This document shows positions 3,778-57,025 of a stretch of 64,000 nt of DNA, one piece after another. The position numbers and the translations under genes were made by a program. Source of the DNA: Bdellovibrio sp. SKB1291214 (GTDB lineage: Bacteria > Bdellovibrionota > Bdellovibrionia > Bdellovibrionales > Bdellovibrionaceae); NCBI RefSeq assembly GCF_002209355.2, contig NZ_CP106855.1:1-64000 (forward strand). Direction: 5' to 3'. The notes under the pieces were generated by a model. That model was not told the DNA's origin, searched no databases, and saw only the letters and a program-made list of their open reading frames with translations. Position 1 is the stretch's first letter. Each line of letters begins with the position of its first letter.

Positions 3778-6012
3778 CTAGTTGTTTTGTGCTGACATTC
3801 CGTTAACTTGAGCCGCGTTTGCTCCAAATTGACCAGTCACTCTTGGTGTCAAGAATACCAAGAGTTCTGATTTCTCTTTGCTCGAGTTTTGAAGTTTGAA
3901 AAGGTTCCCGATAAAAGGAATTTCTCTTAACCAAGGCACACCTTCATCACCTTCCGTCGCGTCACTCACGTAAATGCCCCCGATAACCGCAGTTTGACCA
4001 TTTTTAACCAAAACGCGCGTATCTGCTTCACGAGTATTCGTAGAGAATGACCCATCGGCTTGCGTTGCACCCTGAACCTGACGCGCAACCTTTACTTTCA
4101 TCATAACAGAACCGTCCGCAGTTACCTGAGGAGTAACATCCAATCTTAACGAGAGTGGCTTAAATTGATACGTTACTTGACTGGAATTCCCAGTAATAGT
4201 CACCTGTCTGACTGGCACTTCGGTCGTCTGAGTAATGTATGCAGGCTCATTAGACATCGTCATGATTCTTGGAGAGGAAAGGGTTTTAACTTTCGACTCC
4301 GCCTCTGACAAGGAAAGTGCCGCTGAAATACTTCCGAAGATATCCAAGGTACCCACATCAACGTTAAAGTTGAAGTTCCCCCCCTGAGCCATAGCAGGGT
4401 TGATATTGAATCGTGGAGTCATGTTGACGGGCCCACGTTGAGTGTTACCCAAACTGATCGCTTGACCTGAAACATTCCAATTTACACCCACGCTGCGAGT
4501 GAATCTTTCGGAAGCTTCGACAATTTTACCCTCAATCAAGACCTGAGGTGGCTGTGTATCTAGAGAAAGAATCAACTTAGCTGCCCGATCCAGGTTTTCA
4601 GCGATGTCCGTCACAACCACAGAGTTTGTACGAGGATCACCCACGACCCGACCACGTTCGCCCAAGAAGTCCTTAAGCTTCTTTTCCAAATCTTCAACAC
4701 GCGCGTAGCTAATATTAAACATTCGGACTTTAAGGGGTTCCGTGTTTTTACGAGCCAGTGCCAATTTAGCAGCGTCATCCTCTTCAGTACGTAAGTCATT
4801 TAATTGAGCAATCCGCAGAACATTACCTTGGCGAGTGTAACCAAGTTTACGGGCTCTCATAAGAACCACGAGAGCTTGGTCCCAAGGAACCTGACGAAGC
4901 TTAAGGCTTACTGCGCCCTTTACGTCGTCAGAGATGACCATGTTGACGCCGCTTTCTTCTGTGATGAAGTTTAGGGCGTCACGGATGTCCATGTTGCTTG
5001 TCTCGATAGAAATCTTTTTACCGTAGAATTGAGTATTTCCTGTCAAAAATTCCGTCAAATTTTGATTCGGTAGAATTTTTCCATCGCCAGCAATGGCATT
5101 TGTATCATCAGCAGGAGCGCTTTGCGGACCCGATGCCACACTTGTTGGGGCAGAACCCGCTGCAACGATCAGAACAGCGTTACCCTCATTCTGAACTGCT
5201 GGCTCAGATACTCCTTCGCGCAACTGAACAACGATACGTGCCTTTGTTGATCCGGGGTTTTGGTAGGCATCGATAGCTCCTACTGCTCCACGAATATCTT
5301 TTGTATTCAATGAACGCTTCAAGCGATCTGGTAAAATCGCGTTATCAACTTCCACAATATACTGGTGCAAATCGGGATTTGAGCGAGTTGTAAACGTAAG
5401 AGGGCGATTACCCTGAACGATAATCGTTCCACCGTTATCGTTGGCTTTAAATTGCAAATCCGTGATTGTCGCTGGAGCCGACTGATTGGCTGCGACCGGA
5501 GTTGAAGGCTGAGTCTGTGGAATTTCCTGTGCTGGTGCAGCTGGCTCTTCCATTGGAGGTTGTTCAGGGACATCTGCAACTTGCGGTGCACCAGTTTCAG
5601 TGTCAACGATTGGTGGCATTTCAACGGGGCCCGCATCTGCAGGAGCCACTGGTTCTTGAGAAGCTTGTTGTGGAGTTGAACCTTCGGCTTGATCGAACTC
5701 ATCTTCCAAATTGCCACTTTGCGGTTGGGTTTGACCTGCTTGATGAGCTTGGTCTTCCGGAGAGTTGTCGAAGTCGGCGAATTCATCTGTTGCACCAGAT
5801 TCAGATGGAGTGGCTTCAGCTGAGGATGCAGAACTGTCGTCCGCTACAACATCTGAACCATCACCACCACTGTCATCCAGGCTTAAATCAGCACCCGCTG
5901 ACGAGTCCATTGTATCATCCAATGAAAGATCGTCCTGCGCAGGTCGGCTTGCACACGAGGTAAGTGATGCAATCATTGCAGCTACGATCATAAATCTAAT
6001 GAATCCGTTCAT
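3778..6012 (-). CDS. pilQ: Type IV pilus secretin PilQ
   Basis: The outer-membrane channel through which the type IV pilus passes. At 744 aa the order is: signal peptide with lipobox LTSC (Cys at 20), a long acidic Ser/Asp/Gln-rich linker (about 25-175), an AMIN domain that binds peptidoglycan (about 180-285), an STN/N0 domain (about 335-405), an N1-type secretin domain with VVGDPRTNSVVVTD (about 425-490) and the secretin beta-barrel with KTLSSPRIMTMSN, VLVKNGQTAVIGG and VPWLREIPFIGNLF. The C-terminus ends beyond LLVFLTPRV. AAGGGAGG precedes the ATG. It is the last core gene of pilMNOPQ. Pili are known to be required for prey entry in Bdellovibrio. Confidence 0.97.
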   Translation of the reverse strand: MNGFIRFMIVAAMIASLTSCASRPAQDDLSLDDTMDSSAGADLSLDDSGGDGSDVVADDSSASSAEATPSESGATDEFADFDNSPEDQAHQAGQTQPQSGNLEDEFDQAEGSTPQQASQEPVAPADAGPVEMPPIVDTETGAPQVADVPEQPPMEEPAAPAQEIPQTQPSTPVAANQSAPATITDLQFKANDNGGTIIVQGNRPLTFTTRSNPDLHQYIVEVDNAILPDRLKRSLNTKDIRGAVGAIDAYQNPGSTKARIVVQLREGVSEPAVQNEGNAVLIVAAGSAPTSVASGPQSAPADDTNAIAGDGKILPNQNLTEFLTGNTQFYGKKISIETSNMDIRDALNFITEESGVNMVISDDVKGAVSLKLRQVPWDQALVVLMRARKLGYTRQGNVLRIAQLNDLRTEEDDAAKLALARKNTEPLKVRMFNISYARVEDLEKKLKDFLGERGRVVGDPRTNSVVVTDIAENLDRAAKLILSLDTQPPQVLIEGKIVEASERFTRSVGVNWNVSGQAISLGNTQRGPVNMTPRFNINPAMAQGGNFNFNVDVGTLDIFGSISAALSLSEAESKVKTLSSPRIMTMSNEPAYITQTTEVPVRQVTITGNSSQVTYQFKPLSLRLDVTPQVTADGSVMMKVKVARQVQGATQADGSFSTNTREADTRVLVKNGQTAVIGGIYVSDATEGDEGVPWLREIPFIGNLFKLQNSSKEKSELLVFLTPRVTGQFGANAAQVNGMSAQNN

Positions 6013-6033
6013 TAGTACCTCCCTTATAAGAGA

Positions 6034-6762
6034 CTATTTTTTAAATTCCATGATGCGAGATTCTTTAATGGGTTTGTCTTCATCGTATCTAGTCTCGATG
6101 ACAACAACCTCGCCTTCACGAATTGCCGAAATATATCCATCATTTCGGCCTACTCGAGAACTCTTCGTTACTGTGTAAACTCCACCGTCAGGATCTTTGA
6201 TCATCGCTCGTGGTGTCTTCACATCCCAAAGAATACCAATAATTTGCAAACGTTCCAAATCCCAACGTTGAAGAGGCTCGAGCTGATCGGCCGGAGTCTC
6301 TTTTCTGGTAACTTTAATGATTTTGAACGGCTTAAACGGGTCACGCTTTCCGTTCGGATCATAAATGTAATTGTCTTTAGACAACATGTCTCCGATATCT
6401 GAGGAAGGCGCTGTTACGGCGTCCCCCATAGGAGGTGGCCCTGCATTCGGCACACCTTGCGGCGGCGGCGGTATGCTTGGGGGTGCTGTTTGTGCAGAAC
6501 CCGCCGGTGGTGGCGGCACTGCCTGAGGAGGCGCTCCACCCGGCTGCGCCTGATTTACTTCATTCATAAACTCCGGAGGCAAATCTCCGTTGCTGGGACC
6601 ACCCGCTGGTGGGCCCGGCGGGACCTGTGATTGAGGTGGTTCTGCTGGCGGAGGAGTCTGTGAATGAGCTGGTGCCATGAACTTCGCGCTGACAGCAAAT
6701 GCCAACCAAAGCCCTAATGCAGCAACTATAATGTAAGACATCATCCATCTTACCGACTTCAC
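6034..6762 (-). CDS. pilP: Type IV pilus assembly lipoprotein-type protein PilP
   Basis: PilP links the inner-membrane PilNO dimer to the secretin PilQ. This 242-aa protein has an N-terminal membrane anchor (about 8-27) but no lipobox Cys, unlike many PilP proteins, then a very Pro/Gly/Gln-rich linker (about 33-120). The folded C-terminal beta domain begins with the family motif GKRDPFKPF (about 138-146) and contains LQIIGILWD and a VGRNDGYI stretch typical of PilP. Its start overlaps the pilO stop by 4 bp, pointing to translational coupling. Confidence 0.93.
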   Translation of the reverse strand: MKSVRWMMSYIIVAALGLWLAFAVSAKFMAPAHSQTPPPAEPPQSQVPPGPPAGGPSNGDLPPEFMNEVNQAQPGGAPPQAVPPPPAGSAQTAPPSIPPPPQGVPNAGPPPMGDAVTAPSSDIGDMLSKDNYIYDPNGKRDPFKPFKIIKVTRKETPADQLEPLQRWDLERLQIIGILWDVKTPRAMIKDPDGGVYTVTKSSRVGRNDGYISAIREGEVVVIETRYDEDKPIKESRIMEFKK

Positions 6763-7349
6763 TGAGGATTCTCCACTTTAGGTTTTTCGGGTGCTAGCTT
6801 GTAACCCACAACCTGACCTTCAAATTTTAAATTCTTAGTCGGGTCGCTGTTATCTTCGGCATTGATAACTATATTTTTCACACGAGCCATACGTTCTGAA
6901 GATGAAACCAAAGAAACAAATTGTGCTAGTTGGGCATAACTGCCTTCTAACGTAACATCTACAGGAACTTCTTCCACAACTTCTCTTTTTATATTTTCAG
7001 CTGGCTTTTTAATTTTTACGCTGACGCCTGCTCCGCGCGCAAAACTATCGATCGCCTTATTGATATCAATTGAAAAAAGAACCGTTGGAAGTCGGCGTGA
7101 TATTTCTTGATACTGCTGGCTAAGGCGGCCGAGTTTCTCGCGCATCTCGTTCACCTGTCTTAAGGTTGCATCTGTATCTTTCTTTTTCGCCTCTTGCTCT
7201 TGAACCTGCTGCTGGACAGCCGCAATTTGAGCTTCGACCTGTGAACCATCGTCATAAAGAGTAAAGTAAAACACAGCCGCAAAAACCAAGCCTACGCCAA
7301 GAGTTTTTCCGTAAGTGAAACCAGCGAGGGTATCAAACAACTTATTCAT
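6759..7349 (-). CDS. pilO: Type IV pilus inner-membrane protein PilO
   Basis: A 196-aa bitopic protein of the pilus alignment complex. It has a short cytoplasmic start, one membrane helix (about 15-31), a long coiled coil (about 37-85, Gln/Glu/Lys-rich) and a C-terminal ferredoxin-like periplasmic domain that pairs with PilN. The stretch VPVDVTLEGSYAQLAQFVS is a typical PilO signature. It overlaps pilN by 4 bp and pilP by 4 bp. Confidence 0.94.
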   Translation of the reverse strand: MNKLFDTLAGFTYGKTLGVGLVFAAVFYFTLYDDGSQVEAQIAAVQQQVQEQEAKKKDTDATLRQVNEMREKLGRLSQQYQEISRRLPTVLFSIDINKAIDSFARGAGVSVKIKKPAENIKREVVEEVPVDVTLEGSYAQLAQFVSLVSSSERMARVKNIVINAEDNSDPTKNLKFEGQVVGYKLAPEKPKVENPQ

Positions 7350-7957
7350 TGTGTTGTAGTCCTCTCTAGCACGGCGCTAATCTCAAATTTTTTGAGGATC
7401 ATGTTATCAACTGTTACCTCAGTTGAACTTACCAAATTTACATCCATCAAAAACACACTCTTAGTCAGTGCTTCCAAAAATTGGGATACTTCAAAGTCAC
7501 TCATCCCAAGGCCTTGGATGTTAATCCTCTCGGGAGTGAGACTGACTTTAGTTAACCAGGCTTTTTCTGGAATCACTTGTTGCATGAGATCGATGACGCG
7601 GATTTCACGTGACCGGTCTCGAGAAATTTTGTCGAGAGCTGAGATACGCGCTTCAATGACGGCTTCGTCCTCTTTGAACTTTTTAATTTCGGCAACTGAG
7701 GCAGCTTGCTTTGAATTATAGTTCTCAAGTTCAGATAAGGTTGCTTGCAGGCTGCCAAGTCGGGATTGCAACTCTGGGACATGTTGTTCCTGGTACGCAT
7801 AGAGACAAATCGCTGGAATTAAAATGACGACAATTCTCTTTAATGCTTCCTTACGGGCTTCTTCGGAAACGAAGCTATCTTCGGTGGAAATTTCGCCGAA
7901 TTGGATGCCGCTGGAGGCGGGGCTTGATTTTGTCGAAGCGAGGTTGATTTTAATCAT
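7346..7957 (-). CDS. pilN: Type IV pilus inner-membrane protein PilN
   Basis: PilN binds cytoplasmic PilM through its N-terminus and dimerises with PilO in the periplasm. The first residues, MIKINLA, are the conserved PilM-binding INLL-type motif. A membrane helix at about 42-58 is followed by a coiled coil and a C-terminal domain containing PEKAWLTKVSLTPERINIQG. Length 203 aa is normal. The N-terminal cytoplasmic tail (about 40 residues) is a little longer than in Pseudomonas. It overlaps pilM by 4 bp. Confidence 0.94.
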   Translation of the reverse strand: MIKINLASTKSSPASSGIQFGEISTEDSFVSEEARKEALKRIVVILIPAICLYAYQEQHVPELQSRLGSLQATLSELENYNSKQAASVAEIKKFKEDEAVIEARISALDKISRDRSREIRVIDLMQQVIPEKAWLTKVSLTPERINIQGLGMSDFEVSQFLEALTKSVFLMDVNLVSSTEVTVDNMILKKFEISAVLERTTTQ

Positions 7958-9009
7958 GTGCCGTCACCATCTTGGCGGAGGGCCAAGCCTGTTACGACGC
8001 CTGCGAAATTTTTGATTTGCGCAAGATATTCTGGAGAGAACTTCTTCGGATTCGCTTTGATTTTTGCAAATGGATTGAAGGGTTCCATCGGAATTCCCGC
8101 CACACGCGTGATGGTTTCAATCAAACCAGATGTTTGCGAACTGCCACCTGTATAGAAGCAGCGATTGAGTGTTAATCCATTTGTAGTAGCACTTAAGAAA
8201 TCCAAGCTGCTGCGGATCTCTTCGGTCACGGCCTCATTCGTGGCGCTGATCACGCTGTGAACTTCATCCGGAACGTCGCGCTTCGAAACTGCGCTCAATT
8301 TAAGTGCTTCAGCTTCGCCTATTGTAACACCCATCGCTTTGTGAATTTCATTTGTGTAGTTTGCACCGCCAACTGGGATATCACGGCAGAAAATAACTTC
8401 ACCATATTGAAGAACCACAAAATTTGTGATTGAAGCACCGAAATTTAAAATACCAATAACTTCGCCGGGGAATTTTCCGTAATTCATTTCAAATGAATTC
8501 GCTAGGGCGAAACCGCTGACATCTAATACCGAACATTTTAGTCCGTTGAACTCAATCACTTGCGTATACTGGGTAACAAGTTCGTTTTGAGCAGCGATCA
8601 ACAAAATATCCATCGTATCCGGACTGGTGCTGGTCGTTAAGATGTGATGAGCGAGACTGATATTGTTGATGTCGAATGGAATGTATTGTTCTGCTTCGAA
8701 ACGAATTTGATCGTTAACGAGTTTTCTATCCATTTTAGGAATCGTGATCTTCTTTACGATCACGGCCGTTCCCCACATAGCTGTTGCGATGTTCTTACGT
8801 TTGGATTTTGCTTCGTTGATGAGTGATTGCATAGCAACACCCACGGCTGCGATATCAACAATCTCACCACCAGAAACAGAATTAGGAGGTGTTGGCGCAA
8901 AACCAAACGAGAGAAGCTGGGCCCCCTTACCACTGACATCCATTTCGGCTAATTTAATTGAACTCGATCCGATGTCGAGTCCGATTACTTTTTTAGATTT
9001 AAAGAACAT
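7954..9009 (-). CDS. pilM: Type IV pilus actin-like protein PilM
   Basis: Cytoplasmic actin/FtsA-like ATP-binding protein that organises the pilus inner-membrane platform. The phosphate 1 loop is IGLDIGSSSIKLAEM (about 9-23), phosphate 2 is ILNFGASITNFVV (about 187-199) and the adenosine region is the FYTGGSSQTSG stretch near 287. The Glu/Asp-rich middle (RFEAEQYIPFD) is characteristic. The 351-aa length is standard. It is first of pilMNOPQ and follows a 125-bp leader after pilD. Confidence 0.95.
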   Translation of the reverse strand: MFFKSKKVIGLDIGSSSIKLAEMDVSGKGAQLLSFGFAPTPPNSVSGGEIVDIAAVGVAMQSLINEAKSKRKNIATAMWGTAVIVKKITIPKMDRKLVNDQIRFEAEQYIPFDINNISLAHHILTTSTSPDTMDILLIAAQNELVTQYTQVIEFNGLKCSVLDVSGFALANSFEMNYGKFPGEVIGILNFGASITNFVVLQYGEVIFCRDIPVGGANYTNEIHKAMGVTIGEAEALKLSAVSKRDVPDEVHSVISATNEAVTEEIRSSLDFLSATTNGLTLNRCFYTGGSSQTSGLIETITRVAGIPMEPFNPFAKIKANPKKFSPEYLAQIKNFAGVVTGLALRQDGDGT

Positions 9010-9043
9010 TACTTAGCTGCTTCCCCAGTTGAACCACTTCGAT

Positions 9044-9080
9044 GTCTTTTTAAAGACTTACGTCTTTAGACGCAGGTCTA
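9044..9080 (-). other. Overlapping alternative hairpins in the pilM leader
   Basis: Between pilD and pilM, three mutually exclusive or stacked stems share bases: GTCTTT (9044-9049) with AAAGAC (9052-9057), TAAAGAC (9051-9057) with GTCTTTA (9062-9068), and TAGAC with GTCTA (9067-9080). The arrangement resembles an attenuator or an RNA-processing site in the untranslated leader of pilM. No U-tract follows on the minus strand, so simple termination is not supported. Confidence 0.35.
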
Positions 9081-9134
9081 ATATAAATTATTTCTGCTGG
9101 GGAATAGAATGTCAAACCAGGGGTCTAGGAGGTG

Positions 9135-9926
9135 TTAGCTTAATCCCGGAAGAAAAAGGTCTAGGTACCACAGCGCAATGGTCTGACCGCCGAACAAGTA
9201 CAAGACAGCGGCGAAAGCGAGGTAAGGACCAAAAGGAATTATGGTCTTAAGTCCTGCTTTTTGTTTTCTGGCGGCTACCAATCCGACGACACTTCCAATA
9301 ATGGCTGATGACATAATAACAAAAGGAATTGCCTTCCATCCAAGCAAGGCGCCGATCCAAGCAAGAAGTTTGATGTCTCCCCCACCCATGCCTTCTTGTT
9401 TTGTGAAAATCCAATAGAGGTAAGCCATACCCCACAAGAATCCGCCCCCCATTAAGACACCATATAAGGAATCCAAAAATTCCCGGTGCGGATTCAGAGC
9501 TGCGCCAACAAGACCAATAACTATACCCGACAACGTAAATTCATCTGGTAAAATCATATGGTCCAAATCAATAAACGTGCAGACAACAAGACCAAAAATG
9601 AAAATCAAATACTCCAGAAGATCCCAAGATAAACCTGCATAATGGTAGGCCAATGCGAAGAGCGTTGCCATAATCAGCTCTACCAGTGGGTAACGGAAAG
9701 AGAACTTTGCGCCACAGTTACGGCATTTGCCACCAAGAATGAACCAACTTAAAATCGGGATATTGTCGTACCATGCGACTTGTTTTTTGCAGCTATAACA
9801 ATAGCTGCGAGGCTTTACGATACTTTCTTCGCGAGGCAATCGATAGATGACTACATTGCCAAAGCTTCCGAACAAAGCCCCAAACAAGAAAAACACCCCA
9901 TAGTAGAACAAATCCAAATCAAACAA
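9135..9926 (-). CDS. pilD: Prepilin peptidase / N-methyltransferase PilD
   Basis: Inner-membrane aspartic protease that cleaves prepilin leader peptides and methylates the new N-terminus. The 263-aa protein has the N-terminal zinc-binding cysteines C43-x2-C46 and C68-x2-C71 (methylase-associated loop), the first catalytic region DLDHMILPDE (about 120-129) and the second GxGD motif with D186 (GGGDIKLL). About eight membrane helices are visible. Its start overlaps the ABC permease gene upstream by 8 bp. Placement directly before pilM matches the Myxococcus xanthus pil cluster. Confidence 0.96.
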   Translation of the reverse strand: MFDLDLFYYGVFFLFGALFGSFGNVVIYRLPREESIVKPRSYCYSCKKQVAWYDNIPILSWFILGGKCRNCGAKFSFRYPLVELIMATLFALAYHYAGLSWDLLEYLIFIFGLVVCTFIDLDHMILPDEFTLSGIVIGLVGAALNPHREFLDSLYGVLMGGGFLWGMAYLYWIFTKQEGMGGGDIKLLAWIGALLGWKAIPFVIMSSAIIGSVVGLVAARKQKAGLKTIIPFGPYLAFAAVLYLFGGQTIALWYLDLFLPGLS

Positions 9927-10689
9927 TGTCTTTTCTCCTGAAGCTAAAATTCGTCAGCAAAACGTAGATAATAAACCATCCCACCATATGCGCAACCATC
10001 CACAGAACGTCGCTACTAGGCAAACCCTCTTGAAGGAAATACGCGGACTTCCAATTCATACGGTAGAAGTTTGGGACCACCCAATGAATGCCCTTCACAA
10101 TGGTAACAAACATCGGTTCTTGGCTTTTAGCTGCGAAGAAAGCCATATCCCCCAGCCAGTGACCTAACAGAAACAAAACTATACCCGCGCTTAGCGCCAA
10201 AACAGGACGAACCACCAAACTAAACCACATCGTAAATGCTAAAATAACAGCACTCTCAAACCACAGACTCAGGCAAATTTCAAAAAAGGCAAGCCATTGT
10301 CCCGGTTGAGACCAAACTCCCAAAAGGAAAGAAAGGATAATACCTAATAAGGTGATTAAAAGGGTATTCAGCGCGACCACGCCGAAAATTTTACCCAAGA
10401 TAAACTGATTGCGCGTCACTGGTCTGGACAAAATCAACAAGCATGTTTGTTTTTCGACTTCCTTCGCGATCAAATAAGCACCCGAGAAAAGCGAAATTCC
10501 CAACAGGGCTATTTGCACCGCCAGGAATCCAAAGTCTGCCAGAATCTTTCTTTGCTCAGCAAACGAAAGAGCGCCCAAAAGGAAACTCATCGCGATCATA
10601 ATTGCGGCAATAACAATAACGACAAAGAAGATCTTTTCACGAAGCATTTCACGCAACGTTGTTGTTGCTAAAGTCCAAACCTTAGACAT
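9919..10689 (-). CDS. ABC-2 type permease, PilI-like
   Basis: A 256-aa integral membrane protein with about six helices and the ABC-2 organisation: a short basic N-terminus (LATTTLREMLREKIF) preceding helix 1, then SRPVTRNQFILGKI, a usual ABC-2 permease coupling region. It pairs with the ATPase gene upstream, overlapping by 8 bp. In M. xanthus the ABC genes pilH (ATPase) and pilI (permease) directly precede pilD, so position argues for a PilI role in pilus assembly. On sequence alone a generic NosY/GldF-type exporter permease is equally possible. Confidence 0.8.
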   Translation of the reverse strand: MSKVWTLATTTLREMLREKIFFVVIVIAAIMIAMSFLLGALSFAEQRKILADFGFLAVQIALLGISLFSGAYLIAKEVEKQTCLLILSRPVTRNQFILGKIFGVVALNTLLITLLGIILSFLLGVWSQPGQWLAFFEICLSLWFESAVILAFTMWFSLVVRPVLALSAGIVLFLLGHWLGDMAFFAAKSQEPMFVTIVKGIHWVVPNFYRMNWKSAYFLQEGLPSSDVLWMVAHMVGWFIIYVLLTNFSFRRKDIV

Positions 10690-53335: not shown

Positions 53336-53463
53336 CCGCAATCCGAGACGGAATTCCACCAGCCCCCTTTATATTCTTTATGGCAGTCCACGCTATCTGG
53401 CGCCTTCCTTGCTTTGATGGATCGGCAAGAATCAATGTCGATTCCAAAACAAAAGGACCATTA

Positions 53464-53601
53464 ATGAAAGCCGCAATTTTTTTCGAATCAATTTTGTCTG
53501 AACGCAACCGATCCGGCCAAGGCGTACAAAGAGATCTTTCTGCGAATGATATCCCTGCTGAGATCCTTTCTTTGCTCCAGACACCATCATCTCAAAAATA
53601 A
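53464..53601 (+). CDS. Candidate 45-aa precursor peptide of an exporter/oxygenase locus
   Basis: ATG 53464 has AAAGGA six bases upstream and an in-frame stop at 53599. The peptide MKAAIFFESILSERNRSGQG... is 45 aa, with no Cys or Trp, a helical N-terminal half and a Leu-rich C-terminal region ending SLLQTPSSQK. It lies directly before an Fe(II)/2-oxoglutarate oxygenase gene and an ABC exporter on the same strand, the usual position of a RiPP precursor. Possible hydroxylation targets include Pro31, Pro41, Asn and Asp residues. No cleavage motif (such as GG) is seen. An in-frame upstream ATG at 53380 would make a 73-aa form but has no ribosome binding site. Confidence 0.5.
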   Translation: MKAAIFFESILSERNRSGQGVQRDLSANDIPAEILSLLQTPSSQK

Positions 53602-53611
53602 AATACCATAA

Positions 53612-53635
53612 GGGGGCATTCTAAAAAATGCCTCT
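53612..53635 (+). other. Hairpin between peptide and oxygenase genes
   Basis: GGGGGCATT and AATGCCTCT form a nine-pair stem (with G-T pairs) around CTAAAA, without a T-tract. In RiPP operons such hairpins protect the precursor mRNA and reduce read-through to the enzymes, which would suit this position. Confidence 0.45.
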
Positions 53636-53653
53636 CACTACACAGGATTCTGT

Positions 53654-54202
53654 ATGCAACATCTTACGCCCTGGCCACACTTTATCTTCGACGACTTCTT
53701 ACCTGATGAAAGTTTAAAAAGACTTCAGGCAATCCTGCCGGAGCACCAAAACGGCTTCCGCCAGGATGATGACGATGACATGGAGATCCGTTACAAATTT
53801 CTGCCCGATCTCCCTCTCGCGAAATATTTTCTTGGACCAGAATTCAAAGCATTTTTACAAACAACCACGGGGCTTTCACTCAGGATCAACGAAAAGAGCT
53901 TAGTGCAATTGCGAGTCATGACTCCTGATTCACCACCTATGCCTGCACATGTCGACAACCAAGAGCAGAAATCCTTGGTCTGCCTCTTATATGTGTCCCC
54001 TGACTGGAAGGAAGAATACGGAGGCGAACTTTGCCTGCTTGAAAATAAGTCAGCGCTCGAGCAATCGAGCTCTTCGAAATTGATCGCACCACTAAGTAAC
54101 CGCATGGTTCTTTTTTGTTCAGAAGACTCTTATTGGCACAGCGTGAAACAAGTAAACCACTGGCTCCGCTATTCCATCATTATGGAATGGATAATTAACT
54201 AA
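53654..54202 (+). CDS. 2-oxoglutarate/Fe(II)-dependent oxygenase
   Basis: A 182-aa enzyme of the prolyl/peptidyl hydroxylase-like cupin superfamily. The metal ligands appear as H99-x-D101 (PAHVDNQ) and the distal H162 (SYWHSV), and R172 (WLRYS) should bind 2-oxoglutarate. LLYVSPDW and YGGELCLLE form the typical jellyroll strands. Members hydroxylate or epimerise amino-acid side chains in proteins or peptides. It has no signal peptide and is probably cytosolic. The neighbours (short peptide upstream, ABC exporter 14 bp downstream) suggest that it modifies the peptide, which is inference. Confidence 0.85.
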   Translation: MQHLTPWPHFIFDDFLPDESLKRLQAILPEHQNGFRQDDDDDMEIRYKFLPDLPLAKYFLGPEFKAFLQTTTGLSLRINEKSLVQLRVMTPDSPPMPAHVDNQEQKSLVCLLYVSPDWKEEYGGELCLLENKSALEQSSSSKLIAPLSNRMVLFCSEDSYWHSVKQVNHWLRYSIIMEWIIN

Positions 54203-54216
54203 AACTGGATAATAGA

Positions 54217-55557
54217 ATGAAACACCTCACACACTACATTGAAAAGAAAAAGCTTTTTTTCGCTTTCTTGTTAATCACTATTCAACAACTATTAAATGCT
54301 TTAGGCACCTACGCCCTCGCAAAAGCCGGTCTTTCATTCGAGAATCGCGAAAAATTCGTTCTCTGGACACTTGCCAGTATTTTGCTTTTTATTTTATCTC
54401 CCGTTATCAACATCTTTATCCGCCGTATAGAAAGCATCTTGAGCTTCGACGCCTACAGAATATTTTTAAGCGAAAATTTATTCTCAAAAAGTGGGAATTC
54501 ATCTCTGTGGCAAAGTAAAAATTTAAAAGATCGCTTCCTTGCCTCCATTGGGTCAGATGCAAGCGACTATCTGGGTCTCGTGCTATTTATCAGCATGGAC
54601 ATTTACTCTTTTGTACTTTCAATTGTTCTAGGTGTTCTTACTCTGAGCTTTACTATCGATATGTCTTTACTTCCAGCGTTCACATGCTCGGGAATCTTGA
54701 GTTTCCTGGTTTATCGCAAATTCAGCAAAAAGGTCGAAGCTCTCTACCACGTTGATCAATCTGCGCGTACAGCACTTATCGGTCACCTTTTGAAATCTTG
54801 GGATAATGTACTTCTGAGAAATTCCAACATTTTGCAAAACTATCAAAATAGCTTCATCCAAAAAATTTCATCCGCCCAATCCCGAGCGATTAAATCAGCG
54901 ACTGCGAGTGAGCTTTTGATTTTCGTACTGGGATTAGCCACCGGCCTGCCAGTCCTCCTATCAGCTAGCTGGATTATCTGGAACTCCGTCTCGAACACAC
55001 AAGTATTGATCGCTCTGTTAGCAACTTTACCAAGACAACTCAACATCCTGGGAGTATTTCGCAATGTATTTCAAAGCCTGACAAGCTTGCTCAGTGTTGA
55101 AGCCAAATTCAGTGTATTATGCGAAGGCACGGTTATTCCCGGAAGAAAACTAGAGGAAGCAATCAAAACGGACTTAATCACAATCAATCAGAACTCATTT
55201 TCTGACATCAAAGAGATGATGGAAAAATTTGAAGAAAATCCGACAGGTCGATTTGAAGTCCGAGGAGCCAATGGTGCAGGCAAATCAACATTCTTGCTGC
55301 ACCTGAATCACCGCCTGGATAACTCAGTCTACTTACCAACCCATCCAGATCTAATGATCGGGAGCGAAACCTTTTCAACTCGTTCATCAGGAGAAAACCT
55401 ACTGGCCCACATCGAAGCACTGGCAAGTGCAAAAGAAGAAATCATTTTACTAGACGAATGGGACGCCAACCTCGACGCAGAAAACCTTCAAATCGTAAAC
55501 ACCCGAATCAACCAAATAGCCAAAACAAAAACCATCGTCGAAGTTCGCCACCGATAA
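54217..55557 (+). CDS. ABC exporter (half-transporter) with a minimal nucleotide-binding domain
   Basis: A 446-aa fused exporter. The N-terminal part (about 10-300) has six candidate membrane helices (about 13-33, 49-70, 118-138, 145-166, 232-253, 262-281) of the exporter type. The C-terminal ATPase part (about 320-446) has Walker A GANGAGKST (350-358), a signature-like STRSSGE (387-393), Walker B IILLDEWDANLD (409-420) and an H-loop His445 at the very end. Only about 30 residues separate Walker A from the signature, versus roughly 80-100 in ordinary ABC domains, so the Q-loop and helical subdomain are essentially missing. It is likely a dimer that exports a peptide or another product made by the locus. 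A terminator follows the stop codon. Confidence 0.82.
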   Translation: MKHLTHYIEKKKLFFAFLLITIQQLLNALGTYALAKAGLSFENREKFVLWTLASILLFILSPVINIFIRRIESILSFDAYRIFLSENLFSKSGNSSLWQSKNLKDRFLASIGSDASDYLGLVLFISMDIYSFVLSIVLGVLTLSFTIDMSLLPAFTCSGILSFLVYRKFSKKVEALYHVDQSARTALIGHLLKSWDNVLLRNSNILQNYQNSFIQKISSAQSRAIKSATASELLIFVLGLATGLPVLLSASWIIWNSVSNTQVLIALLATLPRQLNILGVFRNVFQSLTSLLSVEAKFSVLCEGTVIPGRKLEEAIKTDLITINQNSFSDIKEMMEKFEENPTGRFEVRGANGAGKSTFLLHLNHRLDNSVYLPTHPDLMIGSETFSTRSSGENLLAHIEALASAKEEIILLDEWDANLDAENLQIVNTRINQIAKTKTIVEVRHR

Positions 55558-55585
55558 AAAAAGCCACTCCCCAGAGCGGCTTTTT
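55558..55585 (+). terminator. Terminator of the peptide/oxygenase/exporter operon
   Basis: AAAAAGCC-a-CTC pairs with GAG-c-GGCTTTTT around CCCA directly after the exporter stop codon, with the U-rich tract on the plus strand. Confidence 0.8.
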
Positions 55586-55634
55586 AGAAAGCGAGCGCGG
55601 AACGCGCCAGCCAGAATATTTAACCGTGAAACAA

Positions 55635-55761
55635 GCACGCTTCAAAAGTGTGCAGATCCAAGGCGGGCTGGTTGAAAAAGCGCGCAGGCGTACTCCCAGT
55701 ACGTCGGAGCGATTTTTCAATCAGACCAACGCAGGAGATGCGCGCTTTTCAAGCGTGCGCC
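55635..55761. repeat. Cluster of nested palindromes downstream of eno
   Basis: The gap between the island terminator and the eno stop is filled by inverted repeats. A 57-bp imperfect palindrome centred at 55696 has inner arms CGTACT / AGTACG, outer arms TTGAAAAA / TTTTTCAA and partial GCTG / CAGAC pairing. On each side is a related hairpin: GCACgCTT-CAA-AAGtGTGC (55635-55653) and GCGCGCTT-TTC-AAGCGTGCGC (55739-55761). The set resembles a REP/MITE-like intergenic element. The one nearest eno may act as its terminator. Confidence 0.6.
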
Positions 55762-55764
55762 TTC

Positions 55765-57025
<1,261 letters not shown>

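Follow-up and report, generated by a model that had tools for sequence, protein, structure and literature searches.

Organisation of the cassette

The window analysed here comprises the first 64,000 nucleotides of the 3.68-Mb single-contig genome of Bdellovibrio sp. SKB1291214. Between the minus-strand genes ftsB and eno it carries a plus-strand cassette of three genes located one after another (53464-55557), which encode a 45-aa peptide (53464-53601), a 182-aa Fe(II)/2-oxoglutarate (2OG) oxygenase (53654-54202) and a fused ABC exporter of 446 aa (54217-55557). A preliminary description of this DNA had recognised the same three-gene unit among minus-strand genes, and its open reading frames were confirmed. 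It had also credited the peptide gene (MKAAIFFESILSERNRSGQGVQRDLSANDIPAEILSLLQTPSSQK) with a good ribosome binding site, and the Shine-Dalgarno sequence AAGGA (53453-53457, plus strand) is indeed located six nucleotides upstream of the ATG; the oxygenase gene is preceded by AGGA (53644-53647).

Two RNA hairpins were predicted on the plus strand. The first (53612-53635), which was absent from the preliminary description, is located between the peptide and oxygenase genes, where the gap folds with a minimum free energy of -13.6 kcal/mol (z -3.2) and none of 200 shuffles folded as well. A hairpin separates the precursor and maturase genes in most related loci, and this one is probably a partial terminator or an mRNA stabiliser. 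The second, a terminator-like hairpin followed by a T-run (55558-55586; -13.9 kcal/mol for that stretch), is located immediately downstream of the ABC gene. The proposal that the unit ends in its own terminator is thus backed by this structure, although it is absent from the results of a consensus terminator scan.

No immunity gene, protease, receptor or regulator was recognised alongside the cassette. The possibility of a defence system was dropped, as the PADLOC matches were only partial ones to an ATPase or generic ones to a 2OG enzyme. Transfer signalled by anomalous composition was dropped as well, because the GC content is uninformative (cassette 0.426, whole window 0.448, polA 0.429). 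The gap between the ABC gene and eno contains a repeat-like intergenic sequence (55600-55765), diverged copies of which, with about 70% identity, occur in two other places in the genome.

Genomic site and turnover

The cassette was originally thought to part eno from ftsB, and this is so in the window. The two genes are adjacent (48-161 bp) in 7 of 24 genomes of the same genus; most of the others carry different inserts, often a pair of catalase-like and ankyrin-like genes (named by eye), so that the interval is a variable site across the genus and is not peculiar to the cassette. Among loci L139-L153 it was found to be empty or to contain the catalase-like and ankyrin-like pair, a VOC-like protein or other inserts. 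In relatives the cassette is located downstream of polA, beside an mpl-like ligase gene or at other sites, and a dedicated eno-ftsB island was rejected on these grounds. Three genomes (G016, G018 and G023) have ftsB 93-98% identical to that of the window, yet their exporters share only 36-40% identity with the window exporter and their cassettes occupy other sites, suggesting quick turnover of the cassette.

Precursor peptide

The start of the peptide was placed at 53464, and not at 53380, where a 73-aa reading frame begins, because it is here that the homologues begin, with MNK. Hydrophilic and charged, the peptide lacks a GG site. A homologous short ORF was found upstream of the oxygenase in all eight 2OG-type loci detected in the genus (the window and seven others, one of these with a decayed oxygenase). 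Invariant Gly, Leu and Ile-Pro residues correspond to G20, L25 and I30-P31 of the window peptide, and Pro31 is the sole proline common to all eight precursors. As to a possible division into leader (or follower) and core, the segments kept are the N-terminal one, most of which is missing at L030, and I-P-x-E.

Profile searches strongly separated these peptides from chance matches. When held out of the profile, the window peptide scored 42.1 bits, whereas 20,000 shuffles reached 13.0 at most, and it alone was significant (E 3.5e-11) when the 1,863 six-frame segments of the window were searched. In leave-one-out searches the 2OG-type precursors scored 27.8-68.4 bits, while 20,000 shuffles of each reached at most 18.3. 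The 35-aa precursor of G026, which lay outside profile training, was found blind with an E value of 1.6e-5, exactly upstream of its oxygenase, and every match outside the loci was weaker than E 0.018. The genome-wide match of the window peptide (E 1.1e-21) involves a sequence that was itself in the training set. In the G016/G018 pair six synonymous codon changes were counted versus one nonsynonymous (dN/dS about 0.04), showing purifying selection on this pair of precursors. The cassette has, as expected of a RiPP, a ribosomally encoded precursor conserved at the protein level. The preliminary description had regarded homologous loci without a conserved short ORF as evidence against a peptide pathway, and the reverse was found in all eight loci.

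An [ILV]P motif with a short helix-like stretch behind it also occurs in methyltransferase-type precursors that have no 2OG gene nearby (L034 and L103). Several 2OG-type precursors were the best non-self matches of the methyltransferase-type profile, although shuffles scored similarly. Homology of the two groups was not accepted: the motif is suggestive, but the profile scores overlap those of the best shuffles.

Oxygenase

The oxygenase belongs to PF13640 (1e-12) and retains the ligand residues H99xD101...H162 and R172, as the HxD...H motif and arginine reported earlier implied. Its AlphaFold2 model (pLDDT 77.9) forms the double-stranded beta-helix, with HxD...H and a 2OG-binding Arg, that is characteristic of PHD/P4H enzymes; it matched PHD2 in Foldseek at about 1e-8 and gave VIA Z scores of 18.7 for PolD and 18.5 for PHD. 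The fold neighbours were mostly prolyl hydroxylases, together with OGFOD1, PolD and the Pseudomonas putida P4H/EF-Tu complex. While the fold and the Fe/2OG ligands are shared with PHD, P4H, OGFOD1 and PolD, sequence identity to them is only 14-22%.

The closest named family is YhhC (NF041706), a maturase of cyclophane RiPPs, with which the oxygenase aligns over its full length (1.2e-7). However, the scores of the window enzyme (31.5 bits) and of its G016 homologue (41 bits, 1.6e-10) are far below the curated cut-off of 150; there is no radical SAM partner, YhhB, in the cassette or, by inspection, among the neighbours of the 2OG-type loci; and the window precursor was unrelated in profile searches. 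The earlier statement that the parts fit no RiPP class thus stands for the window locus, but must be qualified by this distant, sub-threshold relationship of the oxygenase.

The oxygenase profile matched 10 genomes of the order, in nine of which the gene is located at an exporter locus, and the enzyme is missing from most genomes of the genus. An enzyme of a peptide-modifying type adjoins the precursor gene within the same operon. In G025 (L024, 5987-6163) the oxygenase is reduced to two fragments without HxD beside an intact peptide gene and exporter, so the modification may be dispensable there. Searches of viral contigs gave distant oxygenases only and no exporter. Among contigs of named organisms, alignment of the oxygenase found only L100 of Bdellovibrio sp. 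BIN15, apparently the same contig as that of G019, and alignment of the exporter found no match. In G026 a tryptophan halogenase gene (PF04820, 8e-129) is located upstream of the 2OG-type cassette (L030, 4250-5863).

Mini-ABC exporter

The exporter is a fusion of a transmembrane and an ATPase domain, with some six hydrophobic segments, a Walker A motif at residue 350, the signature SSGEN at 390 and the motif LLDEWDANLD; the chain stops at the H-loop. Its family profile matched Sav1866 with 4.8e-13, and the protein has the order of elements known from the type IV exporters Sav1866, BmrA and MsbA: a transmembrane domain of about six helices, followed by Walker A, signature, Walker B and H-loop. 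It differs from them in ending at the H-loop, in its SxG[EQ] signature and in an ATPase domain short by about 66 residues. Residues 388-458 of Sav1866, which we take to be the Q-loop and most of the helical subdomain, have almost no counterpart, so that the complete ATPase domain of type IV exporters is not present. In 21 family members the distance from Walker A to the signature is about 40 residues, and LLDEWDANLD is nearly invariant. Two sequences did not yield a usable structural model (pLDDT 47).

The best NCBIfam match was a weak one to cleave_ABC_plasm, and the fused architecture resembles that of double-glycine peptide exporters. However, Pfam detected no peptidase domain, C39 or other, and the peptide has no GG site, in agreement with what had been described before. 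With an ATPase domain this short, one may ask which parts of the ABC engine export requires.

Relatives of the exporter and their maturases

Genome searches covered the phylum (369 genomes) as well as plasmids. Among 141 genomes of the order, 22 relatives of the exporter were found in 18 genomes other than that of the window; in the phylum, 25 of the 369 genomes contained relatives, and more distant members are encoded on plasmids of Psychrobacter, Moraxella, Methylophaga and Acinetobacter. Most relatives adjoin both a short ORF with a Shine-Dalgarno sequence and a recognised peptide-modifying enzyme. Besides 2OG oxygenases, these were N-methyltransferases of the OphMA/SonM (borosin) type (9e-16), aKG-HExxH hydroxylases (TIGR04267; 50.5, 58.1, 65.0 and 55.0 bits, cut-off 40), radical SAM enzymes, one of them of the ryptide type (5.6e-68, below its cut-off), and DUF6875 haem proteins (1e-25). 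Almost every one of these maturase loci has the short ORF. Four homologues (L031, L032, L041 and L107) had no recognised maturase adjacent.

The short upstream ORF varies with the type of maturase. The final residues of precursors at HExxH loci are MIAFD or nearly so (RMIAYED on an Acinetobacter plasmid), those at DUF6875 loci have Trp-rich endings, PWRW or WGGGWSW, and the one at the ryptide-like locus ends in GGRRY. Since HExxH enzymes are reported to carry out beta-hydroxylation of Asp and His in a RiPP precursor (PMC12636437) and DUF6875 proteins to oxidise Trp (PMC13307353), the Asp of MIAFD and the Trp-rich endings fit the respective enzymes. Maturase types were clustered on the exporter tree, requiring 10 changes versus 17.2 after shuffling; none of 200 shuffles needed as few as 10.

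The window cassette itself differs from the systems represented among these relatives: it has no methyltransferase (TP_methylase) of the borosin kind, and both its maturase fold and its precursor are distinct from those of the aKG-HExxH beta-hydroxylase RiPPs. As mini-ABC relatives occur beside several kinds of maturases, peptides that are yet undescribed may leave the cell by a common export route. We lean slightly towards the view that the mini-ABC exporter without a helical subdomain defines an undescribed guild of RiPPs whose maturases are interchangeable. This guild would extend over Bdellovibrionota and be mobile on plasmids of Gammaproteobacteria, and its Bdellovibrio members would form a new class, probably prolyl-hydroxylated and exported without a dedicated protease. 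The motif LLDEWDANLD offers a precise query with which short precursor genes that otherwise go unannotated can be mined for several types of maturase together.

Proposed pathway and alternatives

The cassette most probably (a probability of about 0.75) represents a compact RiPP-like pathway, best read as a new class, in which the peptide is synthesised, hydroxylated and exported by the mini-ABC transporter, with no dedicated protease. The main argument for modification and export is that relatives of the exporter adjoin maturases with matching short ORFs. Together with the short ORF kept in all eight loci, this supports the original proposal that the peptide is made on ribosomes, modified and exported. 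It would be translated at a high level from its own ribosome binding site, with the hairpin perhaps limiting read-through into the downstream genes. The oxygenase would hydroxylate one residue, most plausibly Pro31 of the I-P motif, and the exporter, presumably as a homodimer, would carry the modified peptide across the inner membrane. As there is neither a dedicated protease nor a GG site, the peptide may leave the cell whole or be trimmed by a housekeeping protease. In such a guild the exporter would be the common part, into which unrelated maturases and matching short peptides are plugged. Conservation, architecture, folds and co-occurrence were established by computation; hydroxylation and export, as well as the site, Pro31, and a competitive role, we infer.

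Pro31 is a plausible target because the oxygenase model matches prolyl hydroxylases. The strongest argument against it is that the proline, with the helix-like stretch after it, is also kept in methyltransferase-type precursors without a 2OG gene. The proline may instead be a helix cap or a recognition element. There is about an even chance that hydroxylation takes place at another residue, for example an Asn or Asp near I-P or an Arg, and that the I-P-x-E helix is recognised by the exporter or maturase; on the side of Pro31 are its uniqueness among the prolines of the eight 2OG-type precursors and the predominance of prolyl hydroxylases among the nearest solved folds.

As to the role of the exported peptide, a bacteriocin-like or competitive function fits better than core signalling, because the cassette turns over rapidly among close relatives and exporter relatives reside on small plasmids, both being more typical of bacteriocins. 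An intercellular signal seems rather unlikely: the lack of a recognised immunity gene and the hydrophilic, charged character of the peptide would agree with it, but neither a receptor nor a regulator travels with the cassette.

That the short ORF encodes a regulatory leader, with the hairpin as attenuator, in an operon handling an unrelated small molecule, is highly improbable: although a short ORF and a hairpin do precede the structural genes, the peptide is conserved at the protein level far above shuffles and with few nonsynonymous changes, it has no run of codons for one amino acid, and exporter relatives are paired with maturases known to act on peptides. Action of the oxygenase on a housekeeping protein (a ribosomal protein or EF-Tu), beside a separate system of unmodified peptide and exporter, is suggested by OGFOD1 and the P. 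putida P4H/EF-Tu complex among the fold neighbours and by the intact peptide and exporter of G025, but is hardly credible given that the oxygenase accompanies the exporter in 9 of 10 genomes and, unlike a housekeeping modifier, is missing from most of the genus.

In the open-access papers searched no Bdellovibrio RiPP was found, nor any in connection with borosins; besides hydrolases, little is known of Bdellovibrio secretion.

Other clusters with related exporters

Two loci of Bdellovibrionota, L033 (G039, 5299-9958) and L039 (G047, 6636-10513), combine the exporter with a borosin-type N-methyltransferase, one or more 2OG oxygenases, an HExxH protein and a short precursor, and possibly direct the synthesis of multiply modified borosin-like RiPPs. 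At L035, L036, L037 and L042 the HExxH hydroxylase gene is followed by one for a conserved protein (about 365 aa, motif HVNVHDHDF), after which comes the exporter gene; the protein appears cupin-like by eye, and its L036 copy had no Pfam or NCBIfam match. Plasmids of Moraxella osloensis and Methylophaga (L167 and L168) carry a DUF6875 gene, a short ORF with a Trp ending and a mini-ABC exporter gene, which might encode a plasmid-borne Trp-modified RiPP.
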